A stretch of DNA of 64,000 nt from Sulfuricystis thermophila (GTDB taxonomy: Bacteria > Pseudomonadota > Gammaproteobacteria > Burkholderiales > Rhodocyclaceae): assembly GCF_004323595.1 (NCBI RefSeq), contig NZ_AP019373.1, forward strand, positions 1,116,001 to 1,180,000, written 5' to 3'. The position numbers were made by a program, and so were the translations under genes. Positions 272 through 62,119 of the stretch are shown piece by piece. The notes beneath the pieces are model-generated. The model saw only the letters and a list, made by a program, of their open reading frames with translations, was not told the DNA's origin and did no database searches. Within the stretch, counting starts at the first letter, position 1; every line of letters starts with the position of its first letter.

Positions 272-1319
272 CGAACAGATCGCCGGCGGGCAGGCCGACG
301 AGTCCGGACTGACCGGCTGCAAACCCATACTTGCGCAGTACGCGGATGCCGCAGCGTGCTTCGAGCAGCGCGCCGGTTTCGCTGCGAAAGTGCAGCAGCG
401 CTGCTTCGCCGAGATCGACCACTGCTTCTAAGCGCCCGGCCAGCCGTGTTTCGCCGGCGTGCGGCGGATCGTCGGGCCGGCGCAGCGCGACATGCTCGGG
501 ACGGATCGCGATCAGGATTTCGTCGCCGGCGGGCTCGGCGCCGCTCACGGGCAGACGGCCGCCCAAAGCTGGACAGTCGATGCTGAACGCATCGATCCTC
601 TGTGCGGAGAAAATGTTCTTCAGACCCAGAAAGCGCGCCACCGCCTCGCTCGCCGGGCGGCGATAGACCGCCGTCTTCTCACCGCTTTGCTCCTGTCGGC
701 CGTCGATCAGCACGGTGATGTGATCGGCGAGGAAATAGGCCTCGGCGAGATCATGGGTGACGATCATCACCGTCAGGCCCCGCTCCCGCTGCAGGTCTTT
801 GACCAGCCACCACAGCTCGCGGCGCAGGCTCTCATTGAGGGCGGTGAAGGGCTCGTCGAGCAGCACCAGGCGCGGGTGGGCGACGAGCGCGCGCACCAAG
901 GCGACGCGCTGACGTTCGCCGCCGGAAAGCGTGGCGATGCGGCGCGACAGCAGATGACCGATGCCGGTGATCTCGATGAGGCGCTCAAACAGGGGCTGAA
1001 AGTCGGCGCTGGCGAGACGGCACGCCCGCGCGCCGTAGAGCAGGTTGTCGAGGACGGCGAGATGCGGAAACAGTCCCAGCTGCTGCGGCACGTAGCCGAG
1101 CCGGCGGCGCTCGATCGGCCAGTGCGTGATGTCCTCACCCGCCAGGCGCACGTGGCCGGAGGAGGGTGTGAGCGTGCCGAGGATCGCGGCGAGCAGGGTG
1201 CTCTTGCCCGAGCCGGAAGGACCGAGGATGGCATGGCATTCACCGGCGCCGACGGTGAGCGACACATCGTGCAGCCGGAAGCTGCCGGCGCTGACGCTCA
1301 AGTGTTCGAGCTCAAGCAT
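237..1319 (-). CDS. modC: Molybdate/tungstate ABC transporter ATP-binding protein
   Basis: 360 residues. Walker A GPSGSGKST is at residues 33-41, with Q-loop region YVPQQLGLFPHL, signature LSGGERQRVAL, Walker B LVLLDEPF and the switch-region histidine in MIVTHDLAEA. A C-terminal extension of about 130 residues resembles the regulatory TOBE region of ModC/WtpC proteins. It energises import of molybdate or tungstate at the inner membrane with the ModB permease. The ATG at 1319 overlaps the modB stop by 8 bases, so the two are translationally coupled. Residues about 99-108 (ACRLASADF) are encoded by a copy of the family A repeat. The oxyanion cannot be fixed from sequence; context with modE favours molybdate. 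Confidence 0.9.
   Translation of the reverse strand: MLELEHLSVSAGSFRLHDVSLTVGAGECHAILGPSGSGKSTLLAAILGTLTPSSGHVRLAGEDITHWPIERRRLGYVPQQLGLFPHLAVLDNLLYGARACRLASADFQPLFERLIEITGIGHLLSRRIATLSGGERQRVALVRALVAHPRLVLLDEPFTALNESLRRELWWLVKDLQRERGLTVMIVTHDLAEAYFLADHITVLIDGRQEQSGEKTAVYRRPASEAVARFLGLKNIFSAQRIDAFSIDCPALGGRLPVSGAEPAGDEILIAIRPEHVALRRPDDPPHAGETRLAGRLEAVVDLGEAALLHFRSETGALLEARCGIRVLRKYGFAAGQSGLVGLPAGDLFVIAGGPASPGH
998..1024 (-). repeat. Family A short repeat, half copy inside modC
   Basis: Read on the minus strand, this stretch matches the 26-base left arm of family A with about two differences. It is translated in the modC frame as ACRLASADF, the same frame as the plsB copy. Confidence 0.75.
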
Positions 1320-2094
1320 GAGCGCCTCTTGCCAACAGCCGTCGGGCGACGAACAGGGCGGCTAGGCCGATGGCGACGAGGATCAAGATCAGCGCCACGG
1401 TGCCTTCGATGTCGGCGGAGGACAGTCGCATGAAGATCGCGATCGGCAGGGTCTCGGTGCGCATCGCCATCGAACCGGCGACCATCAGCGTCGCGCCGAA
1501 CTCGCCCAATGCCTTCGCCCAGCTGAGGATGAAGGCGGCGATCAGGCCGTTCTTCGCCAGCGGCAGCGTGACGGTGAAGAAGACGTGACGGGGAGAGGCG
1601 CCCAAGGTGCGAGCCACCGTCTCCAGCTCGACCGGCACCGCGTCGAAGGCGGCTTTGAGCATGCGCACCGCCAGTCCGAGAATCGTGACGAACTGTGCCA
1701 GCACGATGCCGGCAAAACCGAAGACGAAATAGACGACGTGTTCCTGAATCCACTCGCCGACGGGATTGTTGAAGAAGATCAGGATGATCGCGCCCAGCGC
1801 GGCAGGGGAAACGATGATCGGGAATTCCAGCACGGTCTCGGTCGCCTCCCGACCGCGAAAACGGTAGCGCGACAGCGCATAGGCGGCGGGAATCGCCAGG
1901 AGCAGCGCCAGTGTCGTGGCGACGGTGGCGGCCATCAATGACAAGCGGATCGAGAAGAAGCTGCGCTCGGAAAACAGGGTGCGAAAAAGCACTGCACCGT
2001 CGAGGAACCAGGCGAGCGAGACGATCAGGCCGGCGTAGAGCGCCAGCACCACGAGCGCGGCGGCGATGCTGGCGCGCAAGCCGGAGGGGCTCAC
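1312..2094 (-). CDS. modB: Molybdate/tungstate ABC transporter permease
   Basis: 260 residues if started at the GTG at 2094, which overlaps the modA stop as GTGA. This start is preferred over the longer open frame because it gives tight coupling and a short cytoplasmic N terminus before the first membrane helix (IAAALVVLALYAGLIV). Several hydrophobic segments are visible, and the EAA-type cytoplasmic loop LETVARTLGASPRHVFFTVTLPL contacts the ATPase. The protein forms the membrane channel of the molybdate/tungstate importer. It lies between modA and modC in one operon read on the minus strand. Confidence 0.9.
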   Translation of the reverse strand: MSPSGLRASIAAALVVLALYAGLIVSLAWFLDGAVLFRTLFSERSFFSIRLSLMAATVATTLALLLAIPAAYALSRYRFRGREATETVLEFPIIVSPAALGAIILIFFNNPVGEWIQEHVVYFVFGFAGIVLAQFVTILGLAVRMLKAAFDAVPVELETVARTLGASPRHVFFTVTLPLAKNGLIAAFILSWAKALGEFGATLMVAGSMAMRTETLPIAIFMRLSSADIEGTVALILILVAIGLAALFVARRLLARGAHA

Positions 2095-2972
2095 GGCTTG
2101 ACGACCTTCTTCGGATCGACCGTGGTGCGCAGATGGAGCCATTCCTTCGGCACCACGTATTCACCGCCGACGGGCTTGACCGCACCGAGCCACTTGAAGG
2201 CGCTGTCCGGATCGGCGAAATAGCTGTACTTGGCATAGATCGCCCGTCCTTCCGGGCCGGTGACGAAGTCGATGAACCGCTGGGCGAGCGGGCGGTTCTT
2301 GCTGAACTTGCTGATGGCGATCGGGATATAGCCGATGCGCGGGATCATTTCTTTCGGCAGCGGAATGGTCTCGATGCGTTCCGGGTCCCAGTACTGGAAC
2401 ACGCGCCAGCCGATCACCGCATCGGCGAGCTTGAGCGAGATGGCCGTGGCGGTCTGCTCGCAGGAGCCGGTGTAGTTCTTGATGTTGGCCTTCAGTTGTT
2501 CACGCTCGCTGGGGGTCAATTCTTTCTCGAAAATCTCCACCGCATAGGCGCCGACGCAGACACCCTCCGGGTTGGCGATCGCCACGCGTAAGCCTGGCTT
2601 GAGCAGGTCCTTGAGCCCCTGGATGTGGTGCGGGTTGCCCTTCTGCACGTTGATGGCCGGCACGACATAGACGATGATCTTTTCGGTTTCGGGCAGGACA
2701 TAGCCGTCGCGCTTGGCGATCTCCATGTAGTCGGAAGAGCCGGGGAAGTAGAGGTCGCCCTGTTTGGCGAGCTTCATCTGCGAGAGCACATACCCTGAGC
2801 CGCCGAATACGACATCGACCTTGGCGCCGGTCTTCTGCTCGAAGGCCTTGACCGCCTCGCTGGTGGGCGGCACGGTGGCGGCGCCGGCAAAGATCAGCAG
2901 GGACTCGCCGGCGGCAGCGGTCACGGCCGACAGGCCGAGGGCGAGAGCGGACAGGATGTGGCGCAGTGCCAT
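2091..2972 (-). CDS. modA: Molybdate/tungstate-binding periplasmic protein
   Basis: 293 residues from the ATG at 2972. The open frame continues to 3014, but the later ATG places a clean signal peptide (ALRHILSALALGLSAVTAAAG) at the very N terminus. The mature part has LLIFAGAATVPPTSEAVKAF followed by FGGSGYVLSQM and DLYFPGSSDYM, the serine/glycine-rich oxyanion-binding loops of ModA/WtpA proteins. It captures molybdate or tungstate in the periplasm for ModBC. It is the first gene of modABC; its stop overlaps the GTG start of modB. Confidence 0.9.
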   Translation of the reverse strand: MALRHILSALALGLSAVTAAAGESLLIFAGAATVPPTSEAVKAFEQKTGAKVDVVFGGSGYVLSQMKLAKQGDLYFPGSSDYMEIAKRDGYVLPETEKIIVYVVPAINVQKGNPHHIQGLKDLLKPGLRVAIANPEGVCVGAYAVEIFEKELTPSEREQLKANIKNYTGSCEQTATAISLKLADAVIGWRVFQYWDPERIETIPLPKEMIPRIGYIPIAISKFSKNRPLAQRFIDFVTGPEGRAIYAKYSYFADPDSAFKWLGAVKPVGGEYVVPKEWLHLRTTVDPKKVVKP

Positions 2973-3043: not shown

Positions 3044-3070
3044 GGTGCCGTGCCGCCAGCGCCGAGTTTC
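3044..3070 (+). repeat. Family A short repeat, half copy in modA upstream region
   Basis: Matches the left arm (GCCGCCAGCGCCGAGTTT section). It lies between the modA start and the 3' end of the next gene, which is also read on the minus strand. Confidence 0.75.
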
Positions 3071-9549: not shown

Positions 9550-9628
9550 GTGCCGTCCCGCCAGCGCCGACTTTTCGAGGTGAGTCGGTGCCCGGCGGGA
9601 CGGTCTGATTCCCTCCAGCGCAGACCCT
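9550..9628 (+). repeat. Family A repeat, complete palindromic copy between glmM and dgkA
   Basis: Best intergenic copy. The left arm core CCGTCCCGCCAGCGCCGACT (9553-9572) faces a right arm at 9583-9603. The outer stem pairs 10 of 10 (9553-9562 with 9594-9603) and the inner stem pairs 6 (CCGACT with AGTCGG), with a loop of about 10 bases. A third, weaker half arm follows at about 9611-9627. The sucB and mutS copies have the same three-part structure. It lies between convergent genes and could fold in either transcript. Confidence 0.85.
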
Positions 9629-12974: not shown

Positions 12975-15323
12975 ATGACTATAGGATACTGGATGTGGCT
13001 GGGGCTGATCATTGCCGTGGGGGGCGTTTTCATCGTCCGGCCGTTGCGCCGTGCCGTGCTGTCAGCGCCGATTTTCGCCACCTATCGGCGCCTGTTGCCG
13101 CCGATGTCGGACACCGAGCGCGCGGCGCTCGAAGCCGGCAGCGTCTGGTGGGAAGGGGAGCTGTTTTCCGGCAAACCGGACTGGCAGCGGCTGTTACGCC
13201 TGCCGAAGCCGACGCTCAGCGCCGAGGAGCAGTCCTTCCTCGATCACGAGGTCGAGGAAGTCTGCGCCATGGTCGATGAGTGGCGCATCAGCCGCGAGCT
13301 CTACGATCTGCCGCCGCAAGTCTGGGATTATCTGAAGCGCAAGGGCTTCTTCGGCATGATCATCCCGAAGCGCTATGGTGGGCTGGAATTCTCGGCCTAT
13401 GCGCACTCGCAGGTGGTGACCAAGCTGTCGACGCGCTCTTCGGCCTTGGCGGTGACGGTGATGGTGCCGAACTCGCTCGGCCCGGCCGAACTGCTGCTGC
13501 ACTATGGCACCGAGGAGCAGAAAAACCACTATCTGCCGCGGCTGGCGCGCGGCGAGGAGATTCCGGCCTTCGCGCTGACCAGCCCCTGGGCTGGCTCGGA
13601 TGCGGCCTCGATCCCCGACGTCGGCATCGTCTGCAAGGGCGACTGGCAGGGCCGCGAGGTGATCGGCATGCGCGTGAGCTGGGACAAGCGTTACATCACG
13701 CTGGCGCCGGTGTGCACCTTGCTGGGCCTCGCCTTCCGGCTCTATGACCCGGAAGGCCTGCTCGGTGACAAGAAGGATCTCGGCATCACCTGCGCGCTGG
13801 TGCCGGCCGATCATCCAGGTGTCGAACTCGGTCGCCGGCATTTCCCGCTCGATGCAATGTTCATGAACGGGCCGACGCGCGGTCGGGACGTATTCATGCC
13901 GCTCGATTTCATCATCGGCGGGCCGCGAATGGCCGGCCAGGGCTGGCGTATGTTGATGGAATGCCTGGCGGCGGGTCGTGCGATCTCACTGCCCTCGTCC
14001 AACACCGGCATGGCGCAGCTCACCGCACGCGCGGTGGGCGGCTATGCGCGCGTGCGCCAGCAGTTCGGCATGCCGGTCGGCCGCTTCGAGGGCGTCGAAG
14101 AGGCGCTGACGCGCATCGCCGCCTACACCTATCTGATGGATGCGACGCGCAAATTCACCGCTGGCGCGGTCGATCTCGGCGAAAAGCCGGCCGTCGCCTC
14201 GGCGATCGCCAAGTATCACGTCACCGAGCGGGCGCGCAAGGTGGTCAGCGACGGCATGGACGTGATCGGCGGCAAGGGCATCTGTCTCGGTCCGTCGAAC
14301 TTCCTCGGCCGCGCCTGGCAGCAGGCGCCGATCGGCATCACCGTCGAGGGTGCGAATATCCTCACCCGTTCGCTGATCATCTTCGGCCAGGGGGCGATCC
14401 GCTGCCATCCCTATCTGTTCGCCGAGATGTCGGCGGCCAGGGAGGCCGATGCCAGAGAGGGGCTCGAACGCTTCGACCGCGCCTTCTGGGGGCATGTCGG
14501 CTTCACGCTGAAGAACGGTCTGCGCGCCTTCTGGCTGGGGCTGACCGGCTCGCACTTCGTGCGCATCGAAGCGGCGGTGGCGCCCGAGATGCGGCGTTAT
14601 TACCAGCAGCTGACGCGCTTTGCGGCGGCTTTCGCGTTTCTCGCCGACATTGCGCTGCTGGTGATGGGCGGTAGTCTCAAGCGGCGTGAGAAGCTCTCGG
14701 CACGGCTCGGCGACATCCTGGCGGCGCTCTATCTGATGTCCGCCACGTTGAAGCGTTTCGAGGACGAAGGCCGCCAGGCCGCCGATGCACCGCTCGCACA
14801 CTGGGCGATCTGGGACACGATGTATCAGGCGCAGCAGGCCTTCGAGGGCGTGATCGGCAACTTCCCGAACCGCTGGGTGGCCGCCTTCTTGCGCCGTACG
14901 ATCTTTCCGTGGGGACATCCCTATGTCGTGCCTTCGGATGCGCTGGGTCACCGGGCGGCGCGGCTGTTGCTCGAGCCCTCGGCGACGCGCGACCGGCTCA
15001 CCGCCGAGTGCTTCGTGCCGCGTGACGAAAACGAACCGGTCGGCGCGATCGAGCTGGCGCTCGCCGCGACGCTCGCCGCCGAACCGATCGAGACCAAGAT
15101 TCGCACCGCCGAGCGTGAGGGCCGTTTCGCCAATGATCCGCGTGCCAACACGCGCCAGATCGCACAACTCGCGCTGGAACGCGGCGTGATCGGCAGCGCC
15201 GAATACGAAACGCTCAGACTGCGCGACCGTCTGCGCGACATCGTCATCCGCGTCGACGACTTCCCGTTCGATTTCGGCCGCGCCGCGGTAACCGCCGTCG
15301 AAACGGAAAGGCTGGCCGCCTGA
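12975..15323 (+). CDS. fadE: Acyl-CoA dehydrogenase, FadE type
   Basis: 782 residues (E. coli FadE 814). An N-terminal membrane segment at about residues 5-26 (WMWLGLIIAVGGVFIV) is followed by the acyl-CoA dehydrogenase domains (FGMIIPKRYGGLEFSAYAH, FALTSPWAGSDAASIPD, VIGGKGICLG, ITVEGANILTRSLIIFGQGAIRCHP) and the long C-terminal domain of the FadE subgroup. It catalyses the first oxidation of beta-oxidation, making trans-2-enoyl-CoA. It is cotranscribed with the TetR gene: the gap is 24 bases and carries GGAGAGGAG. Confidence 0.92.
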   Translation: MTIGYWMWLGLIIAVGGVFIVRPLRRAVLSAPIFATYRRLLPPMSDTERAALEAGSVWWEGELFSGKPDWQRLLRLPKPTLSAEEQSFLDHEVEEVCAMVDEWRISRELYDLPPQVWDYLKRKGFFGMIIPKRYGGLEFSAYAHSQVVTKLSTRSSALAVTVMVPNSLGPAELLLHYGTEEQKNHYLPRLARGEEIPAFALTSPWAGSDAASIPDVGIVCKGDWQGREVIGMRVSWDKRYITLAPVCTLLGLAFRLYDPEGLLGDKKDLGITCALVPADHPGVELGRRHFPLDAMFMNGPTRGRDVFMPLDFIIGGPRMAGQGWRMLMECLAAGRAISLPSSNTGMAQLTARAVGGYARVRQQFGMPVGRFEGVEEALTRIAAYTYLMDATRKFTAGAVDLGEKPAVASAIAKYHVTERARKVVSDGMDVIGGKGICLGPSNFLGRAWQQAPIGITVEGANILTRSLIIFGQGAIRCHPYLFAEMSAAREADAREGLERFDRAFWGHVGFTLKNGLRAFWLGLTGSHFVRIEAAVAPEMRRYYQQLTRFAAAFAFLADIALLVMGGSLKRREKLSARLGDILAALYLMSATLKRFEDEGRQAADAPLAHWAIWDTMYQAQQAFEGVIGNFPNRWVAAFLRRTIFPWGHPYVVPSDALGHRAARLLLEPSATRDRLTAECFVPRDENEPVGAIELALAATLAAEPIETKIRTAEREGRFANDPRANTRQIAQLALERGVIGSAEYETLRLRDRLRDIVIRVDDFPFDFGRAAVTAVETERLAA

Positions 15324-24235: not shown

Positions 24236-24260
24236 TGCCGTCCCGCCAGCGCCGATTTTG
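24235..24260 (+). repeat. Family A short repeat, half copy
   Basis: Core GTCCCGCCAGCGCCGATTTT in the 56-base gap between the NMO-like and acyl-CoA dehydrogenase genes; only the left arm is present. It begins at the NMO stop codon. Confidence 0.8.
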
Positions 24261-41539: not shown

Positions 41540-41557
41540 CCGCTACGGAGAGAGATC

Positions 41558-42877
41558 ATGCTGATCGAAGTCAAAGTCCCGCAACTGTCGGAATCGGTCG
41601 CCGAAGCGACGCTGGTGAGCTGGCACAAACATGTCGGCGATGTCGTGATGCGTGACGAGAATCTCATCGACATCGAAACCGACAAGGTCGTCCTCGAACT
41701 CCCGGCGCCGGAATCGGGCGTGCTGGTCGAAGTCCTCAAGGGCAATGGCGAAACCGTCACCTCGGGCGAGCTGATCGCCCGCATCGATACCGAAGCCAAG
41801 GCGGTGGCGGCAGCAGCCGCACAGCCTGCCGCAGCGAAGCCGGCGCCGCAGCCGACCGCGCCGGCGGCAGCCGCACCGGGCGTCGGCCCGGCCGCCCGTA
41901 AGGCACTTGCCGAGAAAGGCCTGGAGGCTAGCCAAGTGCAGGGCACGGGGCCCGGCGGCCGCGTCACCAAGGCCGACGTCTTGAACGTCGGCGCGCCGGC
42001 AGGTGCCGTCCCGGCAGCGCCGACTATTCGAGGTGAGTCGGCGCCCGGCGGGACGTCCAGTTTTTCGCCAGCGCCGACTTCTGCCCCGGCCGCGCCAGGG
42101 GCGCCAGTCGCTGCGGCAGCCCCGGCAGGCGCCCTGCCGGTACCGCCTGCAGTGGCCCTGGATGCGATCATCGGCGATCGTCCCGAGCAGCGCGTACCGA
42201 TGTCGCGCTTGAGAGCGCGCATTGCCGAACGTCTGCTGCAATCACAGGCGCAGAACGCCATCCTTACCACGTTCAACGAGGTGAACATGGCGCCGGTGAT
42301 CGAGCTACGGAAGAAATACGCCGAGAAGTTCGAGAAAGAGCATGGCGTGCGCCTGGGCTTCATGAGCTTTTTCGTCAAGGCGGCTGTCGCGGCGCTGAAG
42401 AGGTTCCCGATCCTCAATGCCTCGGTCGATGGCAACGACATCGTCTATCACGGCTATTTCGACATCGGCATCGCCGTCGGTAGTCCTCGCGGGCTGGTGG
42501 TGCCGATCCTGCGCGACGCAGATCAGATGTCACTGGCGCAGATCGAAAAGAAGATCGCCGAATTCGGGCAGAAGGCCAAGGACGGCAAGCTCACCCTCGA
42601 AGAGCTCACCGGCGGCACTTTCTCGATCTCCAACGGCGGCGTGTTCGGTTCGATGCTGTCGACGCCGATCATCAACCCGCCGCAATCGGCGATCCTCGGC
42701 ATCCATGCCACCAAGGAGCGACCGGTGGTCGAAAATGGCCAGATCGTGATCCGGCCGATCAACTATCTGGCGCTCTCATATGACCACCGTATCATCGACG
42801 GCCGCGAGGCGGTGCTCGGTCTCGTCGCCATCAAGGAGGCGCTCGAGGATCCGGCACGCATGCTGCTCGACATCTGA
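41558..42877 (+). CDS. sucB: 2-oxoglutarate dehydrogenase E2 (dihydrolipoyl succinyltransferase) with repeat insertion
   Basis: 439 residues, longer than E. coli SucB (405). Lipoyl domain with lysine in [16 protein letters not shown] (residue about 44), Ala/Pro-rich linker, E1/E3-binding domain about 110-148 ([20 protein letters not shown]), second linker, and catalytic domain ending in [16 protein letters not shown] with catalytic His and Asp. Residues about 149-175 are encoded by a complete family A repeat ([18 protein letters not shown], then SFSPAPTS). This lengthens the flexible linker before the catalytic core. It transfers succinyl to CoA. Confidence 0.96.
42001..42082 (+). repeat. Family A repeat, complete copy inside sucB linker
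   Basis: Left arm core 42006-42025, right arm 42036-42055, third half arm 42065-42081. It is in frame with sucB and free of stops. The translated peptide recurs in MutS. Confidence 0.9.
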
Positions 42878-42887
42878 GGAGGCGAAC

Positions 42888-44330
42888 ATGACCAAGCGAC
42901 AATTCGACGTCGTCGTCATCGGTGGTGGCCCCGGCGGTTACGTCGCGGCGATCCGCGCCGCGCAGCTCGGTTTTGCCACCGCCTGCATCGAGATGGAAAG
43001 CTATGCCGATCCGAAAGGCGAGGTGCGGCTGGGCGGCACCTGCCTCAATGTCGGCTGCATTCCCTCGAAGGCGTTGTTGCGCTCCTCCGAGCTTTTCGAC
43101 GAGGCAAAGCATGCCTTCGTGATGCATGGCATCAAGATGAACGATTTGGCGATCGACGTCGGCGTGATGATGCGCCGCAAGGACAACATCGTCACCCAGC
43201 TCACCCAGGGCATCCGCGGCTTGTTCAAGAAGAACAAGGTGACGCTGCTCGCCGGGCGCGGCAGCTTCGCCGGCCGCGAGGACGAACTCTGGCAGATCGC
43301 GGTGACCGCGCAGGACGGCACGACCGAGATCGTCGCCGCGACACACGTGATCGTCGCCACCGGCTCGTCGCCCCGCCAGCTGGAAGGTATTCCGGTCGAT
43401 AACGTGACGATCTGCGACAACGTCGGGGCGCTGTCTTTCACCGAGGTGCCCAAACGGCTCGGCGTCATCGGCGCCGGGGTGATCGGCCTCGAGCTCGGTT
43501 CGGTCTGGAAGCGGCTGGGATCAGAGGTGACGATCCTCGAAGCGATGCCCGACTTCCTCGCTGCCGCCGACCCGGCCGTAGCCAAGGAAGCCTGGAAGAT
43601 TTTCACGAGCAAGCAGGCCCTGAAGATCCATCTGGGAGTGAAGATCGGAGAGGTGAAGCAGGGCGCAAAGGGCATCGCCATCGAATACGAAAACGGTGAG
43701 GGGGCGCAGCGGCTCGAATGCGACAAGCTGATCGTCTCGGTCGGTCGCGTGCCGAACACGGCCGGATTGGGATGCGAGACCGTCGGTCTCGAGCTCGATG
43801 CGCAGGGGCGCATCGCGGTCGATCACCAGTGCCGTACCAACTTGGAAAACGTCTGGGCAGTGGGCGATGTAGTGCGTGGGCCAATGCTCGCGCACAAGGG
43901 CATGGAAGAGGGCGTGATGGTCGCCGAGTGCATCGCCGGCCAGGCCGGGCATGTCAATTACGAGGCGATTCCCTGGGTCATCTACACACATCCGGAAATC
44001 GCCTGGGTCGGCAAGACCGAGACGCAGTTGAAGAATGAAGGCGTCGAGTACCGTGTCGGCCAGATTCCCTTTCTCGCCAACGGTCGCGCACTCGGCCAAG
44101 GCGATACCGCCGGCTTCGTCAAGATGCTCGCCTGCGCCAAGACCGACCGCATCCTCGGCGTGCATGTGATCGGCAGCAATGCCTCGGAGCTGATCAGCGA
44201 GGCCGTCGTGGCGATGGAATTCGGTGCCGTCGCCGAAGACATCGCGCGCATCTGCCATGCCCACCCGACGCTCTCCGAAGTGATGCACGAGGCGGCACTG
44301 GCGGTGGATAAGCGCGCGCTGCATTTTTGA
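42888..44330 (+). CDS. lpdA: Dihydrolipoyl dehydrogenase (E3)
   Basis: 480 residues from the ATG at 42888 (GAGGAGG before it); the longer frame lies in sucB. FAD motif [21 protein letters not shown], redox-active disulfide [19 protein letters not shown] motif [20 protein letters not shown] and active-site His-Glu in [16 protein letters not shown]. It reoxidises the lipoyl group of SucB with NAD+. It is the last gene of sucAB-lpd. Confidence 0.96.
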
Positions 44331-44378
44331 TGTCTGGTAGCACTACAATGGCGCTTGCCGTCAGCCCGGGAGTTTGTG

Positions 44379-44609
44379 ATGAATGAAAGGATCACTATCG
44401 ATGCGGCGATTTGCCATGGCAAGCCCTGCATCCGCGGCCTGCGTTATCCCGTCGAGAGCATCCTCGAATGGCTGGCCGCGGGGATGACGATCGATGAGAT
44501 CCTCGCCGATTATCCCGATCTCGAACGAGAAGACATCCTCGCAGCGCTTGCGTTCGCTGCCCGCCTCACTCACGTCAAGCGCCTGGAGCCTTTGGCCGAG
44601 GCGGCATGA
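44379..44609 (+). CDS. DUF433 antitoxin-like protein
   Basis: 76 residues from the ATG at 44379 after GGGAG. ITIDAAICHGKPCIRGLRYPVESILEWLAAGMTIDEIL followed by DYPDLEREDILAALAFAAR is the standard DUF433 sequence, a small helical protein that pairs with DUF5615 PIN-like toxins in presumed toxin-antitoxin loci. Here it is intact, while the partner is a deletion remnant overlapping by 4 bases. It is therefore probably an orphan antitoxin. Confidence 0.88.
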   Translation: MNERITIDAAICHGKPCIRGLRYPVESILEWLAAGMTIDEILADYPDLEREDILAALAFAARLTHVKRLEPLAEAA

Positions 44610-44735
44610 AATTTCTCGTCGATGCGCAGCTACCGCGCCACACTGTGGCGCAGGCACATCGATACGATCGAGGCAGCGTTCGTTTCGGCGCGTTTCGTCG
44701 AGCTCGGCCGTGCTGCGCTGATCATCCACGCTTAG
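44606..44735 (+). pseudogene. Deleted DUF5615 PIN-like toxin
   Basis: It begins with MKFLVDAQLPR, the exact N terminus of DUF5615 toxins, overlapping the DUF433 stop. After 11 codons the frame is lost. In another frame, about 4 bases further on, the C-terminal toxin sequence appears: WRRHIDTIEAAFVSARFVEL followed by GRAALIIHA and a TAG at 44733-44735. The roughly 60-70 residues normally between the two are missing, so the gene carries an internal deletion. The shifted frame still reads to 44812 but has no meaning. The last codons abut the 144-bp MITE. Confidence 0.8.
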
Positions 44736-46022: not shown

Positions 46023-47236
46023 GGTGCCGGTCCGCCAGCGCCGACTTTCGACGCTTCACCACAAAGTCGGAAAGCCCACGCCGCCACAGGTGGGCCAAGG
46101 GTTTCGAGAATGGCCACCGCGACGAGGATCAACGCATACAGAGTCTCGACCTGGGCGCCGAACAGTTGATCGGCCGTTTGCACCAGACCGATGGCCAGGC
46201 CGGCCATCGGCATCAGCAGCAGGCCGGTCGCGGTCGCTCCCCGGTGGCCGATGCCGTGACGCCATAATAAGCCGTGCACGATCAGCCACTTGGCAAGAAA
46301 GCGCGCGCCAACGAAGGCGAGCGCCATCAGGCCGATCTGCGCGAACAGTGCCGGTTTGATCTTGCTGCCGGCGAAGACGAACAGCACGATGAAGAAGAGT
46401 TCGAAGGCTTCGCCGAATTCGATCTCGGAGAGCGATTCGCCTTCGGTTTCCAGGCTACGCACTGCGACCCCCATCGCCAGCGGTACGAACAGTGGCGAGA
46501 GCAGCAGACTGTCGGCAATGCCGACACCGAGCATCAGGGCACCGACGACGAGCGCAAAGCGGTATTGCGGGGCGCTACGCGTGCGTCGAGCGAGCTGAAC
46601 CAAAAGCCAGGCGATGGCGGTGGCAACGAACGCCGAGCCCGCCAGCCGATAGATCGGTTGCAGCAGTGCGGTGGCCAAATCGGCATCGGTAGCAAGATGG
46701 GCGAAGGGCAGTGCGGCGGAAAACGCCAGGAAGGAAAAGAGGTTGTTGAGCGCGACCATTTCCTTGGCGCGTTCGGTGGTCGGGCCGACGGCACCGAGTT
46801 CGTGCGCGACGTGGATCAACACCGCGGGCGAGGAGGAGATCGCGATCGCTGCGGCGAGGGCGGCGAGGAAAGGGGACAAGCCGAGCCAGACGAGCAACCC
46901 GTAGCAGGCTAGAAAGCTTGCACTGCTCTCGGCCGCCGCCACGAACAGCAACCGGCGATCGCGCAGCATGGCGCGCAGATCGAGCGAGAGGCCGAGGCGA
47001 TAGAGGATCAGCGCGAGGGCCACACCGATCAAGGGGCGCGCTTGATCGAGGGATTCCTGGGTCAATAGATCGATGCCGGAGGGGCCGATCAGGAAACCGA
47101 TCGCCATGAAACCCGTGATCGAAGGCAGCCAGGAAATCCGGTGGGCAAGATAACCGCCCAGCGCACCAGCAAGCAGCAAAATACCGAAAGCGATCTGGGA
47201 AGTGTAGGCAGGAGGCCAGTCGGGCAGAAAATTCAT
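46019..47236 (-). CDS. Cation:proton antiporter, CPA2/KefB-like membrane domain
   Basis: 405 residues, about 11-12 hydrophobic segments beginning [44 protein letters not shown] and [24 protein letters not shown] are typical of Na+/H+ or K+/H+ exchangers of the CPA2 group. There is no TrkA-N or other cytosolic regulatory domain. The last nine residues (KVGAGGPAP) are read from a family A half copy, so the native C terminus was probably changed. It starts with a 4-base overlap on the mutS stop. Confidence 0.85.
46022..46048 (+). repeat. Family A short repeat, half copy at the zapE/antiporter junction
   Basis: GTCCGCCAGCGCCGACTTTC segment. It begins at the zapE stop and supplies the last codons and stop of the antiporter gene on the other strand. 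Confidence 0.8.
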
Positions 47237-49920
47237 CGCTGTGCCTCCTCGGTCAGCCGCTTGAGCGCATAGAGCCGCTCGAGCGCCTCACGCGGCGAGA
47301 GGGCATCGGGATCGAGCGCCGCCAGTGCTTCCAAGGCTGGATGCGTCGTGGTTGCGAAAGTCGCCGCTGGCGGAATCATGAACGTCCCGCCGGGCGCCGA
47401 CTCGCTATGCAAAGTCGGCGCTGCCGGAACGGCACCCAAGTGGCTGAACAGGTCGGGCTGGGGTGAGGCGGCCGCCGTGCGGTTTTCCAGCTCGACCAGT
47501 TGCCGCTGCGCATCGCGCAATACTGCGGGGGGGAGACCGGCAAGTTGGGCGACCTGGATGCCATACGACTGCGACGCCGGGCCGGGTTCGACGGCATGCA
47601 GGAAGACCACCGACTTGCCGTGCTCGATCGCATCCAGATGCACGTTGGCACAGCCCGGATGCTGCTCGGCCAAGCGGGTGAGCTCGAAATAATGCGTCGC
47701 GAACAGCGTCCAGCAGCGGATTTTTTCCACCAGGTGGCGCGCGATGGCGAAGGCGAGCGCGAGACCATCGAAGGTCGAGGTGCCGCGGCCGATCTCGTCC
47801 ATCAACACCAGTGAGCGTTCCGTCGCATTGTGCAGGATTGCCGCGGCCTCGGTCATCTCGACCATGAAGGTCGAGCGGCCCGAGGCGAGATCGTCGGCGG
47901 CGCCGATGCGGGTGTGGATCGCGTCGATCGGCCCGAGCCGGCAACTTGCCGCCGGCACGAAGCTGCCGCAGTGGGCGAGCAGCACGATCAGCGCGATCTG
48001 GCGCATGTAGGTCGATTTGCCGCCCATGTTCGGGCCGGTGACGATCAGCATGCGCCGGTTCGGATGGAGATCGAGGTCGTTGGCGATGAAGCTCTCCACC
48101 TGGCGCTCGACGACCGGATGGCGGCCGGCGCGGATCTCGATGCAGGGGTAATCGACGAATTCCGGTCGGCAGTAGTCGTAGCGCCGCGCGGCGGTGGCGA
48201 AGGCGGCGAGGCCATCGAGCTCGGCGAGCGTGCGACCGATGCGTTGCAGCGCGGGAATGTGCGCGGCCAGCGCATCGAGCAGTTCGTCATAGAGACGCTT
48301 TTCCAGTGCCAGGGCGCGTTCGTTGGCGGAAAGCGCCTTGTCCTCGAAGGCTTTCAGCTCCGGCGTGATGTAGCGCTCGGCATTCTTCAGCGTCTGGCGC
48401 CGGCGATAATCCTCGGGCACCTTGTCGGCATGGGCGTGCGTGACTTCGATGTAGAAGCCGTGCACCTTGTTGTATTCGACCTTCAGGCTGGGGATGCCGC
48501 TGCGCTCGCGTTCGCGCGCTTCGAGTTCGAGCAGGAACTGACCGCAGTTCGACTGGATCGCGCGCAGCTCGTCGAGTTCGGTGCTGAAGCCGGCGCGGAT
48601 CACGCCGCCGGCGGCGAGCAGGGCTGGCGGCTCCTCGGCGAGGGTGGTCGCCAATCGTTCCAGGCAGCCATCTGGCATCGCGAGTCTTTCGCGCAGCTCG
48701 CCCAGCAGGCCGGTTTGTCCGGCGAGCAAGCGGTCGAGCGCGGGCAGGCGCTGCAAGGTTTCGCGCAGCGCGGCCAGCTCTCGCGGCCGGGCGGACTTGA
48801 GCGCGATGCGGCTGCCGATGCGCTCGAAGTCGGCGCTGCCTTTCAACACATCGCTCAGCGCATCGACCAGGTCCTCTTCCAGTAGGGCGGCTACGGCGCC
48901 GTGGCGTCGTGCCGCTTCGCTGCGGTCGCTGAGCGGGTGATGCAGGCAGTGCTTGAGCCAACGCGTGCCGGCCGCCGTCGCGCAGGTATCGAGTAGCGAG
49001 AGCAACGTCGGGGATGCTTCACCGCGCAGGGTTTCGGTGAGTTCGAGATTGCGGCGCGTCGCGGCATCGAGCCGCAGCCAGGCGCTCTCGTGCTCCAGCG
49101 TCAGGCCCGTCACATGGGGCAAGGCGGCGAGCTGCGTGGCCTGTGCATAGCGCAGCAGCGCGCCGGCGGCGCCGAGCGCCAGCCGCGCCTCGCTCTCGGC
49201 GGGAATGAAGCCGGAAAGATCGCGCGTGCCGAAATGCGCCGTCAGGAGCTGGATCGCGCCATCCGTATCGAAATGCCAGTCGGGACGCCGCCGCACGAAA
49301 GCGGCCTGCGGGGATGGCAAGGCCAGCGTCGATCCTTCGCCGAGCAGGATTTCCGAGGGTTTGAGGCGGCCGAGCTGGGCAGACAGCGCCCCGGCGTGCG
49401 TCTCCATGAGTCGCAACGCGCCGCTGGCGAGATTCAGCCAAGCCAGGCCGATGCGCTGGCGCTCCTGCGCCAGGGCGAGCAGCAGGCTGTCGCTCCGGTC
49501 GTCGAGCAGCGCGGCATCGGTGAGTGTGCCGGGGGTGACGATGCGCACCACCTTGCGCTCGACCGGGCCCTTGCTGCTTCCCGGATCGCCGATCTGTTCG
49601 CAGATCGCCACCGATTCGCCGAGCTTGACCAGCCGCGCAAGGTATTGCTCGACGGCGTGGTAAGGCACCCCGGCCATCGGAATCGGCGCGCCTGCCGACT
49701 GCCCGCGCTGGGTCAGCGTGATGTCGAGCAGTCGCGCGGCTTTTTCCGCATCGTCGTAAAACAGCTCGTAGAAGTCGCCCATGCGGTAGAACAGCAGCAC
49801 GTCGGGATGCGCGGCCTTCAGACGCAGATATTGCTGCATCATCGGCGTGTGGCGGGAAAGTTCCGCTTCGGAGAACCGGGAAGTCTGAGAGCTTGTGAAA
49901 AATTCTGCTGCGCTTGCCAT
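47233..49920 (-). CDS. mutS: DNA mismatch repair protein MutS with displaced start and repeat-encoded linker
   Basis: 895 residues (E. coli 853). The mismatch-binding region is [18 protein letters not shown], then the connector and clamp ([19 protein letters not shown]), Walker [37 protein letters not shown], and the C-terminal oligomerisation helices [20 protein letters not shown]. It recognises mismatches and starts repair with MutL. Residues 1-10 ([10 protein letters not shown]) come from a 141-bp element that separates the frame from the old ATG at 50041-50039. A start at the ATG pair of codons 27-28 is the only alternative. Residues about 829-857 are a family A repeat in the linker after the ATPase domain. 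Confidence 0.95.
47353..47436 (-). repeat. Family A repeat, complete copy inside mutS
   Basis: On the mutS strand: left arm from 47436 to about 47412, right arm 47402-47383, third half arm 47376-47353. It is in frame without stops and reads [18 protein letters not shown] then IPPAATFA. Confidence 0.9.
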
Positions 49921-50119: not shown

Positions 50120-52255
50120 ATGCTCCCGATGGCCTCCGGCCCACTGCGTCTGGCGCGGCGCCTATTACACCTGTGGGTGCGTCTGCGCCTTTTCCCCGAA
50201 CATGCCGCCGCCCTCGGCATCGATCCCGCCCGGCCGGTCTGTTATGTGTTGTTCGAGGACTGGCTGTCCGACCGGCTCGTGCTGCATGAGGCGGTGGCGC
50301 GCGCCGGGCTGCCGCCTGCGGATCGGCCCTTGGAGGTCGCCGGGTGCCGTCTTGCCAGCGCCGAGTTTGCGCTGAGCCCGGGCTGGCGGCCCTTCCGTCG
50401 TGCGCGTGCGCTCTACGGTTCGCCGGCGCGGTTGGCGCGGCTGATTGCCTGCCTCGCCGCCGATCCGGCTGCCGATGTGCAGATCGTGCCGGTCACCGTG
50501 CTGTGGGGACGGGCGCCGCGCCAGCAGGATGGGGTGCTGCGCGCCTTGCTGGCGGAATCCTGGCAGCGCCGTCAGCCGCTCGGCCACTGGCTCGCGGTGC
50601 TGCTGCATGGTCGGCAGACGCACGTCCATTTCGGCGTGCCTTATTCGCTGCGTGCCTTGCTGACGGACATCGCCGAACCCACGCGTGCCACGAAGAAAGC
50701 CGTGCGCGTGCTGCGCGCCCATTTCCGGCTGCAGCGCGAACGCTTCATCGGCCCGGACATCTCCCATCGCCACACCCAGGTCGAGGCGCTGCTCGCGACG
50801 CCCATGGTGCGCGCCGCGATCGAGGCCGAGGCGGCCCAGCATGGCATTCTGCTCGATGCCGCGCGAGCCCGTGCCCGCCGCCATGCCGTGGCGATCGCCT
50901 CGGATTTCTCCTATGCGGTGACGCGCGCCGGCGAAATCTTCCTCACCTGGTTGTGGACGCGGCTGTTCGACGGTGTCGAGGTGCGCAATCTCGACGTGCT
51001 GCTGCGCGTCGCGCCTGGCCAGAGCGTCGTCTATCTGCCCTGTCACCGCAGCCACGTCGATTACCTGCTGATGTCGTACGTCATCTACCGGGCGGGGCTG
51101 GTGCCGCCGCACATCGCCGCCGGCGACAATCTCGATCTGCCCGTGCTCGGCCGCATCCTGCGCGGCGGCGGTGCTTTCTTCCTGCGGCGCAGTTTCAAGG
51201 GCGATCCCCTCTATGCCACGGTGTTCGCCGAATATCTGCATTACCTGCTGGCGCAGGGTTTCCCGGTCGAATATTTCATCGAGGGCGGCAGGAGCCGCGA
51301 CGGCCGCCTGCTGCCCCCCAAGGCTGGCCTGTTGGCGATGACGATCCAGAGCTTCCTGCGCTGGCATGAACGTCCGCTGGTGTTCGTGCCGGTCTATCTC
51401 GGTTACGAAAAGCTGCCCGAGGGGCCGAGTTTCGTCGCCGAGCTGGCGGGTCGCCCGAAACGACGCGAATCCTGGCTGGGGCTGCTCTCCTCGCTACGGC
51501 TGCTGCGGCGGCATTTCGGCCGGGTCTATGTGAATTTCGGCGCGCCCTTGCCGCTTTCCGACTGGCTCGATGCGCAGCGGCCCGACTGGCGTGTGGCGCC
51601 GCCCACGGGCGAGGCGCAGCGCGCGCTGGTCGCCGCGATCGCCACTGAACTGTCAGGACGTATCGGCGCGGCAGCGCTCGTCAATCCGGTCAATCTCGTC
51701 GCCCTGGCGCTGCTGGCCACGCCCGAGGTCAGCGCCGAGGAAAGCGTGCTGGCGCGGCAGATCGAGCATCTCGCGGCGCTCGTCGCTGACGCGCATCTGG
51801 CCGCGCCATCCCGTGGCGAGGACTGCATCGCTACGGCGCTGCGGCTTGCCGCGGTGCGCCGCAGCGAGACTGCGGACGGCGCACGGATCGTGGCCGATGC
51901 CATGGAAGCCGCGCTGCTCGCCTATTTCCGCAACAACGTGCTGCATTTGTTCGTCTTGCCGGCGCTGATCGCCCGGCTGCTGATCGACCGCGGAGCGTTT
52001 GCCGACTCACGATGGCCTGCGGCGTTGGAAGCGATGCTCGCTCCGCTGCGCGATCGCCTCTGCTGGCATCTGAGCGACGCAAACCTGCCTGCGGCGCTCG
52101 AGGATTCGTTGGCGCGCTTGGCCGCGCGCGGGTTGATCGAACGCGAAGACGATGTCTGGCATCCGCCGGCCAGAGAGGCGCCGGCCTATGCAGCGCTGGG
52201 TTGGCTTGCCAATATCCTCGCGCCGGAGCTACGGGCGCTGCCCGAGCCTCATTGA
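50120..52255 (+). CDS. plsB: Glycerol-3-phosphate acyltransferase PlsB
   Basis: 711 residues from the ATG at 50120 (E. coli 807); another ATG is at 50129. The catalytic HX4D block is LPCHRSHVDYLLMSYV, the glycerol-phosphate-binding blocks are GGGAFFLRRSFKGDPLY and VEYFIEGGRSRDGRLLPPKAG, and the fourth block is RPLVFVPVYLGYEKL. It acylates glycerol-3-phosphate at position 1, the first step of phospholipid synthesis. A TATACT at 50088-50093 may be its -10. Residues about 75-84 (GCRLASAEF) come from a family A half copy. It converges with rmuC with a 7-base overlap. Confidence 0.92.
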   Translation: MLPMASGPLRLARRLLHLWVRLRLFPEHAAALGIDPARPVCYVLFEDWLSDRLVLHEAVARAGLPPADRPLEVAGCRLASAEFALSPGWRPFRRARALYGSPARLARLIACLAADPAADVQIVPVTVLWGRAPRQQDGVLRALLAESWQRRQPLGHWLAVLLHGRQTHVHFGVPYSLRALLTDIAEPTRATKKAVRVLRAHFRLQRERFIGPDISHRHTQVEALLATPMVRAAIEAEAAQHGILLDAARARARRHAVAIASDFSYAVTRAGEIFLTWLWTRLFDGVEVRNLDVLLRVAPGQSVVYLPCHRSHVDYLLMSYVIYRAGLVPPHIAAGDNLDLPVLGRILRGGGAFFLRRSFKGDPLYATVFAEYLHYLLAQGFPVEYFIEGGRSRDGRLLPPKAGLLAMTIQSFLRWHERPLVFVPVYLGYEKLPEGPSFVAELAGRPKRRESWLGLLSSLRLLRRHFGRVYVNFGAPLPLSDWLDAQRPDWRVAPPTGEAQRALVAAIATELSGRIGAAALVNPVNLVALALLATPEVSAEESVLARQIEHLAALVADAHLAAPSRGEDCIATALRLAAVRRSETADGARIVADAMEAALLAYFRNNVLHLFVLPALIARLLIDRGAFADSRWPAALEAMLAPLRDRLCWHLSDANLPAALEDSLARLAARGLIEREDDVWHPPAREAPAYAALGWLANILAPELRALPEPH
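50343..50369 (+). repeat. Family A short repeat, half copy inside plsB
   Basis: CTTGCCAGCGCCGAGTTT section; read as GCRLASAEF, the same frame as the modC copy. Confidence 0.7.
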
Positions 52256-53896: not shown

Positions 53897-53924
53897 AAAC
53901 TCGGCGCTGGCAGGACGGCACGGC
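53896..53924 (-). repeat. Family A short repeat, half copy next to family B
   Basis: AACTCGGCGCTGGCAGGACG on the plus strand is the inverted left arm. It starts where family B copy 2 ends and lies 15 bases from the pyrD stop. Confidence 0.8.
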
Positions 53925-53938: not shown

Positions 53939-54955
53939 TCAGCGGGCCGCGCGCGTCGCAGCGACGCATTCGGCGACGAGGCCCGGGCCGCGATAGACCA
54001 GGCCGGAATAGATCTGCACCAGCTGCGCGCCGGCGTCGAGTTTCGCTTTCGCCTTGGCACCATCGACCACGCCGCCGGCGGCGATGATCGGCACTTCGCC
54101 AGCGAGCGCCCGGGCGAGTTTTCTCAACACTTCGGTCGACAGTTCGAACAGCGGCGCGCCGGACAGGCCGCCGGCTTCATTGGCATGGCGCAGGCCGGTG
54201 ACCCGGCTGCGGTCGAGCGTGGTGTTCGTGGCGATCACGCCATCACAGCGATGGCGGCGCAGGGCATCGGCGATGGCGTCGATCTGCGCGTCATCGAGGT
54301 CCGGCGCGATCTTCAGCACCAGCGGTACGTAACGACCGTGCCGGTCTGCCAGTGCCGACTGTTGCGACTTCAGCGCGGCGAGCAGTGCGTCGAGCTCGGA
54401 AGCGCCTTGCAACCGACGCAGGTTCTGGGTGTTTGGACTGGAAATGTTGACGGTGACGTAGCTGGCATGGGGATAGGCCTTCTCGAAGCCGATCCGATAG
54501 TCATCCACGGCGCGCTCGATCGGCGTGTCGGCGTTCTTGCCGATGTTGATGCCGAGAATGCCCTTGTATTTCGCCGCCTTGACGTTGGCGATCAGCGCGT
54601 CGATGCCGTGATTGTTGAACCCCATCCGGTTGATGATGCCTTCGACCTCGGGCAGCCGGAACATGCGCGGCTTCGGATTGCCCGGCTGAGGCCGCGGCGT
54701 GACGGTGCCGACCTCGAGGTGTCCGAAGCCCCAGGTGGCCAGTCCGTCGATCGCTTCGCCGTTCTTGTCGAGTCCGGCGGCAAGACCCACGCGGTTCGGG
54801 AAGGAAAGCCCCATCACATCGATGGGCGTGTCGGGCAGCGGGCCTTTGCTGGGTAGAAACGCACCGAGGGTGCGCAGGCCGGCGATGGAGAGCTCGTGCG
54901 CGGTTTCGGGATCGAGCGCGAGGACGAAGGGTTTGATCAGACAGTAAGGGATCAT
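53939..54955 (-). CDS. pyrD: Dihydroorotate dehydrogenase (quinone), class 2
   Basis: 338 residues from the ATG at 54955, which overlaps the bpt stop. The N-terminal membrane-association helices ([20 protein letters not shown]) mark class 2. [44 protein letters not shown], the catalytic Ser region [12 protein letters not shown], and [10 protein letters not shown] follow. It oxidises dihydroorotate to orotate with ubiquinone in pyrimidine synthesis. It is the third gene of an aat-bpt-pyrD run with 4-base overlaps. Confidence 0.95.
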
Positions 54956-56408: not shown

Positions 56409-57465
56409 GCCGGAACGCTACCACATGTTCCGTATCCAGTCGGATACCGATCTTTTCGCCAATGGCGTGGTCGTGGTGCGAAGGCACCAGCGAGAGCACG
56501 CGGGCGCCGGAAGCGAGCTCCAGGGTGTAGAGGAATTCCGCGCCGCGAAAGGCCTTGGCGAGGATCGTGGCCCGCAGGGCAGCGCCATCGTCATGCACGA
56601 CGTCATCGGGGCGCAGCAGCACTTCGACGGGACTGCCGGCCGGCAGCAAGGCGCAGCTGGCGCCATCGCATTCGGTCGACAGCAAACCATTGAGCACACC
56701 CAGTTCGGTCGCCACCCGGCCATCGGCTTGGATGTGGCCGGCGAGGAACGCGCCTTCACCGACGAAATCGGCGACATGGCGCGTCGCCGGACGGTGATAG
56801 AGGTTCCAGGGCGTATCCCATTGCTCGATGTGGCCGGCGCGCATCACGCCCACCCGGTCGGCGACGGCGAAGGCCTCGTGCTGATCGTGGGTGACGAGGA
56901 TCGCTGCGGTGCCGGCCTCTTTCAGGATGGCGCGCACTTCGAGCGAGAGTCGTTCGCGCAGCTCGACGTCGAGGTTCGAAAAGGGTTCGTCGAGCAGCAT
57001 CAGATGCGGCCGTGGCGCGAGCGCCCGAGCCAAAGCCACGCGCTGCTGCTGGCCGCCGGAGAGTTCATGCGGATACTTGTCGCCCTGGCCGGCAAGCCCG
57101 ACGAGTTCGAGTAGCCGCGCCACCTGCCGTTCCGCCAGCGCCGACTTTTCTTGCAGGCCGAAAGCGATGTTGCCGGCCACCGTCAGATGGGGAAACAGCG
57201 CGTAATCCTGGAACACCATGCCGATGCGCCGTTTTTCCGGCGGCAGGTGATGACGGCTATCGTCGACCGCTTCGCCGCGCAGCAGGATGCGCCCGGCATG
57301 CGCACGCTCGAAGCCCATGATGAGCCGCAGCACGGTCGTCTTGCCGCAGCCGGAGGCGCCCAGCAGGCAGCCGATCTCGCCTTCCTCTAAAGTGAGCGAC
57401 AAGCCGTCGACGACACGGTGCGTGCCGTAGGTGAAACTGACGTCGTCGAGTTCGAGGATGGCCAT
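56386..57465 (-). CDS. fbpC: Iron(III) ABC transporter ATP-binding protein (FbpC-like)
   Basis: 359 residues from the ATG at 57465. Walker [17 protein letters not shown]-loop [21 protein letters not shown], signature [15 protein letters not shown], Walker [13 protein letters not shown], switch LVTHDQHEA and a TOBE-type C-terminal region. These match FbpC/PotA-like ATPases; divergence from fbpB and the FutA-type binding protein further on favour ferric iron. Residues about 106-114 (KSALAERQ) come from a family A half copy. A -10 box at 57477-57472 implies a leaderless mRNA. Confidence 0.88.
57126..57150 (+). repeat. Family A short repeat, half copy inside fbpC (opposite orientation)
   Basis: GTTCCGCCAGCGCCGACTTT differs from the core at one position. 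The gene is on the other strand and reads it as EKSALAERQ. Confidence 0.75.
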
Positions 57466-57471
57466 GGCAGG

Positions 57472-57477: not shown

Positions 57478-57478
57478 A

Positions 57479-57495
57479 TTGAGAAATATTCTCAA
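57479..57495 (+). promoter_or_regulatory. Fur-like palindrome between fbpC and fbpB
   Basis: TTGAGAA-ATA-TTCTCAA is a perfect 7-3-7 inverted repeat and fits the TGAnAAT-n-ATTnTCA form of Fur boxes with one change. It occupies the -35 zone of fbpC and lies directly before fbpB, so one site could repress both. Confidence 0.5.
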
Positions 57496-57524
57496 AAACC
57501 TTGAAAAACCCGCCAACCCCCCCA

Positions 57525-61572: not shown

Positions 61573-61814
61573 CACAAATCCTCCTTTGCCAGTTTGAGGG
61601 CGGCGGCTTCCTCGCGGCGCAACGAAAGATGGACGCCGCGCACGCGAATCTCGATCGGATCGCCCAAGGGGGCGCGGCGCACCACCATGAATTCGACTCC
61701 CGGGGTGAGACCCATTGCCAATAGCTTGCGCCGGTAGCCTTGACCCTGTGCCGTATAACCCTCGATGCGGGCCGAATCGCCCGCTTGCAGCGCATCGATC
61801 GTCGTCATTTGCAT
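61572..61814 (-). CDS. feoA: FeoA-domain protein (proximal to feoB)
   Basis: 80 residues. SH3-like FeoA fold: LQAGDSARIEGYTAQGQGYRRKLLAMGLTPGVEFMVVRRAPLGDPIEIRVRG, recognisable by the LLAMGLTPG and DPIEIRV motifs, ending LSLRREEAAALKL. It assists FeoB. An internal ATG two codons in (61808) is an alternative start. It overlaps the second feoA by 10 bases. Confidence 0.9.
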   Translation of the reverse strand: MQMTTIDALQAGDSARIEGYTAQGQGYRRKLLAMGLTPGVEFMVVRRAPLGDPIEIRVRGVHLSLRREEAAALKLAKEDL

Positions 61815-62119
61815 CGCTCCATGTCTTCATGATTTGCCGGTGTCACCCAGAGCCGGTGTGCCAGCGCTGCGCCCAGGGCAAGACGCGAATTGCCGCGCAT
61901 GACCACCACACCGCTCTCCTCGCGCAGGCAAAGCGCCAATTCGGCACCCAGATTGAGGCCCATCTCGGTCAGGCGTTTATCGATGGCCGCTCCACCTTTC
62001 ATGGCGACGATGCGTACTCGCTCGCCCACTTGGGCCATCATCAGTGGATAGGCCTTTTCGCCAATGGCTTGCCGTCCCGCCAGCGCCGAGTTTGGGTTTC
62101 GTGCCATCGTGGCATCCAT
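61805..62119 (-). CDS. Second FeoA-domain protein
   Basis: 104 residues; VGERVRIVAMKGGAAIDKRLTEMGLNLGAELALCLREESGVVVMRGNSRLALGAALAHRLWV is a complete FeoA domain, read here in segments. It differs from the proximal FeoA, so the cluster encodes two. The first 20 residues are an unusual extension, and residues about 10-17 (NSALAGRQ) come from a family A half copy. The core could also start at an internal ATG (MMAQVGERV). Confidence 0.87.
   Translation of the reverse strand: MDATMARNPNSALAGRQAIGEKAYPLMMAQVGERVRIVAMKGGAAIDKRLTEMGLNLGAELALCLREESGVVVMRGNSRLALGAALAHRLWVTPANHEDMERCK
62069..62093 (+). repeat. Family A short repeat, half copy in the 5' end of the second feoA
   Basis: GTCCCGCCAGCGCCGAGTTT matches the core at 19 of 20; read from the other strand as NSALAGRQ, the same frame as in fbpC. 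Confidence 0.78.

Follow-up and report, generated by a model that had tools for sequence, protein, structure and literature searches.

The window analysed here is a 64-kb stretch of the genome of Sulfuricystis thermophila (G000; 2,737,315 bases in one contig), in which a first-pass annotation had described a short palindromic repeat of about 12 copies as one family. The repeat is real, but the family consists of two things: a simple 24-bp motif, referred to below as H, which we discuss as a probable DNA uptake sequence, and a 54-bp hairpin unit, referred to as E. The core of the repeat was present at all 12 positions named (998 to 62069), and searching the window with GTCCCGCCAGCGCCGACT at up to 3 mismatches gave 14 matches, two of the 12 places giving two each; when the window was shuffled 100 times, the average was 0.19 and the highest count 2. 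Further, weaker copies were detected at 13052 and 54339. The three copies described as complete (9550, 42001 and 47353) do fold as hairpins, and the five incomplete copies that were folded do not (z 0.02 to 1.07). Pfam agreed with the host genes assigned before, namely a HypE-type AIRS protein, SucB, MutS, PlsB (GPAT_C), two ABC ATPases with TOBE_2 and a Na/H exchanger. The copies are given below; G-numbers such as G002 and G004 denote the genomes of compared relatives.

999..1022, minus strand: H, inside the modC-like ABC ATPase gene 237-1319(-) (ABC_tran and TOBE_2); 0 mismatches to the degenerate consensus; recognisable in G002, shifted by one base
3046..3069, plus strand: H, intergenic by our own gene calls; 0 mismatches
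9551..9625, plus strand: E, intergenic; H and a 54-bp hairpin unit closed by a second, imperfect core; z -4.29
13052..13075, plus strand: H, in the open reading frame (ORF) 12975-15323; 1 mismatch; identical and ungapped in G002
24236..24259, plus strand: H, adjoining the stop of 23177-24235; 0 mismatches; identical and ungapped in G002
26713..26736, plus strand: H, in a hypE-like gene (GAVLPAPT; AIRS/AIRS_C); 0 mismatches; ungapped in G002, with a degenerate letter changed
42004..42081, plus strand: E, in frame in the linker of sucB (41558-42877); hairpin z -3.57; same E in G002, plain H in G004, seven other relatives motif-free with gapped alignments
46025..46048, plus strand: H, at the 3' end of the antiporter gene 46019-47236(-); 1 mismatch; gapped in 2/2 aligned relatives
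47357..47434, minus strand: E, in frame in the C-terminal linker of mutS (47233-49920); hairpin z -2.34; hypervariable stretch with plain H in 7 of 12 aligned relatives, G002 being placed by flank anchors
50345..50368, plus strand: H, in plsB (CRLASAEF); 0 mismatches; ungapped in G002, G004, G010 and G017, gapped in G008 and G009
53897..53920, minus strand: H, between genes, 3' of the pyrD-like gene 53939-54988(-) (DHO_dh); 0 mismatches
54339..54362, plus strand: weak H, in the pyrD-like gene; 3 mismatches; ungapped in G002 and in seven relatives without the motif
57125..57148, plus strand: H, in the fbpC-like ABC ATPase gene 56386-57525(-); 0 mismatches; ungapped in G002, G007 and G017, gapped in G004
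62070..62093, plus strand: H, in the small minus-strand ORF 61805-62119 (the putative second feoA of the first-pass annotation); 0 mismatches; in G002 the corresponding gap, which lies between two aligned blocks, contains the plain motif

Distribution and dialects of the 24-bp motif

The consensus of H is gTGCCGTnYYGCCAGCGCCGAnTTT, and its logo has sharp edges and a mixture of fixed and variable letters. It was derived from 84 copies found in 464 kb at up to 5 mismatches and without a downstream hairpin arm, and these may include some third arms of E. In the whole genome GCCGTNCCGCCAGCGCCGACTTT at up to 3 mismatches yielded 502 matches, 248 forward and 254 reverse, and the reversed pattern, used as a control, yielded none; over-representation on both strands is what is expected of DNA uptake sequences. 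H was present in 17 of the 18 relatives of the genus, with 333-745 matches each, the exception being G006 with none, and two genomes of other genera, G019 and G026, carry 658 and 787 matches. Sixteen other genomes drawn from the family gave 0-8 matches and 24 genomes from other families of the order 0-4. Using a looser pattern, at least 180 hits were obtained in 28 of 249 family genomes, which belong to six genera (g1, g2, g9, g62, g70 and g88), and tens of hits in a few genomes of g11, g47 and g69, with the reversed looser pattern giving at most 4 hits in any of the 249. When the label "motif" is mapped on a tree of MutS from 28 genomes, it requires 3 changes, as compared to 9.4 in shuffles; the closest named MutS relatives are metagenome-assembled genomes of Sulfuritalea, Rhodocyclales and Propionivibrio, and a Rhodocyclaceae bacterium.

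The motif exists in clade dialects, in which the core is common to genera and set places differ, as judged from small samples per genus. Its first letter is T in G000 and C in G019, G026, G079, G141 and G153, and a fourth T was seen in G026, G079, G141 and G153 (6-14 copies each). Seed-free discovery in G028 revealed a word of its own, ending in GCGACTGACTTT, with 8 copies compared to 0.11 expected. In 173 kb of G006 we detected no word of comparable enrichment; the best one, GTCGGCGCCGAC, is a palindrome, for which three places give 6 counts when the two strands are added (z 7.1).

Several single genomes deserve mention. G006 combines zero motif matches with a long MutS branch within the genus, a possible loss of the system. 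In two otherwise motif-poor genomes the copies cluster as if imported from a motif-bearing relative: 5 of the 6 listed copies of G123 lie within G123:C1:1461266-1502244, and 5 of the 11 listed copies of G168 within G168:C1:1914286-2005931. Among the matches listed, the viral contig L258 (IMGVR_UViG_3300009945_000063) holds five copies of the motif, four of which are spaced at 316 bases.

Origin and placement of the motif copies

Comparing G000 with G002, 63 sites (up to 3 mismatches) were located in 285 kb of G000, 38 of them inside aligned blocks and 35 of these simple. The simple sites are shared ungapped in 27 cases, altered by substitution in four, and beside gaps yet still recognisable in the remaining four, one of which is E in the partner. 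At none of the 35, all in alignable DNA, was H missing from G002 through a 24-bp gap. The informative letters of the motif are 96.0% identical between the two genomes (475 positions), compared to 89.3% in the flanks (p 9e-8) and 88.8% at the degenerate letters (p 0.004), a count made over 25 ungapped sites with E sites and exchange-tract sites included. The mean identity of the two genomes is 88.7% in 381 windows, and two tracts of about 4 and 12 kb, which hold one and three motif copies, are mostly 98-100% identical to G002; such high-identity tracts are what recent homologous exchange leaves. The one that contains the sucB copy is as follows.

40698..44697: exchange tract, 98-100% identical to G002 in an 88-89% background (500-bp windows); holds the sucB E

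Across the wider genus 63 site alignments were made, 36 of them with usable flanks; 31 of these are ungapped and 5 gapped, and none has a partner gap of 18 columns or more. Orthologues of the window genes are ungapped at the site in 4 of 6 relatives for plsB, 1 of 1 for hypE, 3 of 4 for fbpC and 8 of 8 for the pyrD-like gene, seven of the last being without the motif; among the ungapped pairs of occupied and empty sites in the wider genus, 7 of 9 come from this one site, window 54339. The alignments indicate that H copies arise by substitution and not by insertion, less clearly so in variable linkers. The first-pass annotation had held that the same residues at the same place in distant genera would mark the copies as ancestral coding sequence and not as inserted repeats. 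At the MutS tail such residues do occur in genus g70, GVPPEPTF in G087 and AVPPEPTF in G141, but the other motif-bearing genera are listed without them, and the comparison concerns residues only. Nor can H be plain ancestral coding sequence, as its letters are conserved at the level of DNA.

In 644 kb of G000, with genes called by a codon-usage script trained on 16 window genes, 115 simple copies were distributed as 82 in genes, 29 intergenic and 4 at edges. Random places are 89.7% genic, 6.7% intergenic and 3.6% at edges, so that H is enriched between genes. The four translations reported earlier are indeed used by the in-gene copies (32, 23, 13 and 11 of 82), but they are four of six possible frames, and the remaining two are nearly or wholly avoided (3 and 0 of 82); the encoded peptides include KVGAGx..., SALAxRQ and CRLASAEF. 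The spacing of H is more even than chance in two genomes, with coefficients of variation of 0.69 and 0.67 compared to 0.97-0.98 (p ~0.001). Two of 20 sampled 20-kb stretches were copy-free, one with nusG, rpoB, rpoC, fusA and tuf and the other with part of a tailed prophage. The latter lies in a region of 62.6 kb (G000 1,886,111-1,948,678) in which no copy was found at up to 4 mismatches, with 13.8 expected, and which holds tail, capsid, portal, protease, terminase and integrase genes, a tRNA-Phe gene and some ordinary genes.

G000:C1:1898213-1938701: tailed prophage with terminase, portal, capsid and tail genes and an integrase near tRNA-Phe; motif-free

At another place (L236, G000:C1:2361818) a pilin-like gene was noticed, the leader peptide of which, as read by script, looks encoded by a motif copy.

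The 54-bp hairpin unit

E is a 54-bp unit located directly after the motif, with a second motif core at its end, and it forms arrays of two to four units. Among 33 chosen genomes we counted 62 units in G000, 52 in G002, 17 in G004 and 9 in G007, and the pattern was found in none of the other 29; within the genus E is thus confined to 4 of 19 genomes, where it is seated inside H. At all four one-sided E loci that could be resolved between G000 and G002, the partner has plain H:

G000 9551: E; plain H in G002
G000 mutS 47411: E; plain H in G002
G002 1214240: E, two units; plain H at G000:C1:1183151, outside the window
G002 1260421: E; plain H at G000 1228783; the difference is one 54-bp unit inside the motif and one flank base

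Bracketing flanks are lacking for the G002 E sites 1058778 and 1136447 and for a weak G000 match at 1018266, and several rows at 3 mismatches, which are not E by the pattern used, were not counted. The sucB copy, present as E in both G000 and G002, lies within the exchange tract, and G004 has H there.

One unit of 54 bp amounts to 18 codons and keeps the frame. Among the 30 best-matching copies in G000, a selected and not a random set, an open gene runs through 17; another 3 are at the end of a gene, 3 at edges and 7 between genes. The array period, measurable in 23, is exactly 54 in 13 of 13 in-gene arrays and 55, 56 or 57 in 3 of the 10 others. Over 31 copies, pairing in the 17-pair stem is preserved in 97.3% of cells. 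Two pairs show compensatory change of both partners (3 cells), and one pair has 6 unpaired cells. A known RNA family was considered and set aside; the Rfam cut-offs were reached in the window by three tRNAs only.

The best reading of these data is that E is a separate, young hairpin unit, placed in pre-existing H sites of four genomes and then multiplied locally in tandem. We infer that it moved as a unit. A rather unlikely alternative is that E is not mobile and was built in place from the local H by template switching or hairpin misreplication, followed by slippage. Consistent with building in place, the plain H at G000:C1:1183151 and the partner E array at G002:C1:1214240 share the same rare letter (CCGAATTT), the opposite E arm at G002:C1:1214240 carries the matching ATTCGG, two stem pairs co-vary, and units within one array resemble each other. 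However, unrelated sites have a similar loop, a similar CCC bulge and a similar TCATTTCC-like spacer, and these parts cannot come from the local H.

E, read as a mobile unit, can be compared with the Rickettsia palindromic elements (RPE), which are palindromic, lie in frame inside genes and are tolerated in linkers. Like these, E is palindromic, in frame in genes and tolerated in linkers, and relatives have plain H at the same site; unlike these, it measures 54 bp per unit, is tandem, sits at H sites and has a different sequence. By analogy, E seems to work like the Rickettsia elements without being one of them.

A predicted DNA uptake sequence and its rivals

DNA uptake sequences (DUS) are known in Neisseriaceae and, as uptake signal sequences (USS), in Pasteurellaceae (PMC12616744). 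The Neisseriaceae consensus is ATGCCGTCTGAA (PMC5031613) and the Pasteurellaceae one AAGTGCGGT or ACAAGCGGT (PMC5031613, PMC12616744). As judged from sequence, we propose that H is probably a sequence of this kind, which would mark kin DNA for natural transformation. Outside the cell, a protein of the type IV pilus would recognise a word present about once per 5 kb on both strands, and this recognition during natural transformation would lead to preferential uptake of kin DNA; a receptor would thus read H, and uptake would be the selected function. Copies would arise by point mutation, and would persist by biased uptake and homologous replacement, with no insertion. Such a model would account for the site-specific degeneracy, the clade dialects, the even spacing and the frame avoidance. 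It would also explain why H is missing in one highly constrained operon and in a prophage.

As in the Neisseriaceae system of DUS and ComP, H has many copies on both strands, clade dialects, in-gene copies in permissive places and a pilin of the ComP_DUS family in the genome, and it differs in having about one copy per 5 kb. The 5' letters GCCGTC of H are found in the DUS consensus ATGCCGTCTGAA (PMC5031613) too, a resemblance that serves as a lead only. USS have extended weak positions and even spacing. H resembles them as an over-represented uptake-type word with a strong core, whereas its sequence is unrelated and its host belongs to another class of bacteria.

As to the machinery, ComEC was found in 30 of 30 genomes checked. 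G000 has 15 matches to the pilin N-terminal motif, and one protein falls in the ComP_DUS family (E 1e-10, above the cut-off).

G000:C1:1712620-1712922, minus strand: ComP_DUS-family pilin, the single one in G000 and a candidate receptor

ComP_DUS was detected in 28 of the 30 genomes, being missing from the motif-bearing G086 and the motif-free G100. As ComP_DUS occurs in genomes with and without the motif, it names a candidate and proves nothing.

Several observations weigh against the uptake proposal. The logo and the counts start from copies picked by their resemblance to the consensus. Sites in the wider genus are gapped in 14% of cases (5/36), compared to 8.3% of random places, many H sites lie in variable linkers, and flanks were usable in only 36 of 63 alignments; at the sucB site seven relatives are without the motif and gapped, and the antiporter tail is gapped in 2 of 2. 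The strands are uneven in the G002 stretch (36/19). Close inverted pairs were absent from 285 kb, in which the nearest two copies lie at least 442 bp apart, so that the terminator-associated inverted pairs of DUS, common in Neisseria, have no counterpart there. Unlike the 12-bp DUS, H is 24 bp long, roughly double what is known for uptake sequences, and in the orientation of DUS its consensus has no CTG core. The absence of H from some regions was tested only after it had been noticed, and one prophage only is among these regions. Given the density of H, chance would place motif copies in the exchange tracts too, and since ComEC and ComP_DUS are also present in motif-free genomes, neither discriminates, and their presence was dropped as a test.

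It is conceivable, but in our view doubtful, that H is instead the binding site of an intracellular protein, such as a nucleoid organiser or a signal for chromosome segregation, repair or recombination. Letters conserved as DNA and numerous matches on both strands would suit such a site as well. Chi and KOPS signals, however, are short and strand-biased, whereas H in G000 is divided 248/254 between the strands. Moreover, the dialects follow clades, the one prophage examined is motif-free, and a member of the genus, G006, has neither H nor a comparably enriched word in 173 kb, which would be odd for a housekeeping site.

The first-pass annotation had taken all copies for one inserted element resembling the protein-coding palindromic elements of Rickettsia. 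Extended to any single mobile element, Rickettsia-like or REP-like (REP, repetitive extragenic palindrome), with the short copies as decayed remnants, this explanation is most improbable; it is already contradicted for H and stands in modified form for E. The minority of E copies do behave as insertions, being in frame, with an arm common to H and with plain H in the partner at four loci. The simple copies, which form the large majority (62 E units compared to 502 matches in all), do not: H is abundant in 14 of 15 E-free genomes of the genus and in several of other genera, its degeneracy is position-specific, its letters are conserved one by one between species, and a 24-bp gap in place of H was seen in no partner. 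A REP driven by a RAYT transposase, which E recalls in being a short palindrome of many copies, was rejected, as there is no GTAG start, E is often inside genes, and the lack of a RAYT gene reported for the window extends to the whole genome, with 0 matches to the Y1 transposase profile PF01797 in G000 (control genomes were positive in 5 of 14).

Returning to H as a predicted uptake sequence, we tentatively suggest, at somewhat less than even confidence, that Rhodocyclaceae may be a third family with an uptake system of its own, 24-bp and multi-dialect, and that E inserts into these tags and may be carried further by the same transformation. To our knowledge H would be the longest uptake word, and we know of no earlier repeat that lives on uptake sequences. 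In the literature searched, outside which lay most subscription papers and all bioRxiv preprints, we found no report of H, no occurrence of the string CCAGCGCCGACTTT, no uptake sequence report for Rhodocyclaceae, Rhodocyclales or Accumulibacter, and no paper joining Rhodocyclaceae, natural competence and type IV pili. If the proposal is true, a further, environmental family would become available for following the origin, change and loss of uptake specificity, with its dialects, the motif-free G006 and a candidate receptor; natural competence would be predicted where we found no report of it, and E would be a repeat riding on uptake tags.

Apart from H and E, the window holds a second repeat, at 30242-30432 and 53715-53898, of about 190 bases each, the two copies being inverted and 84-86% complementary.

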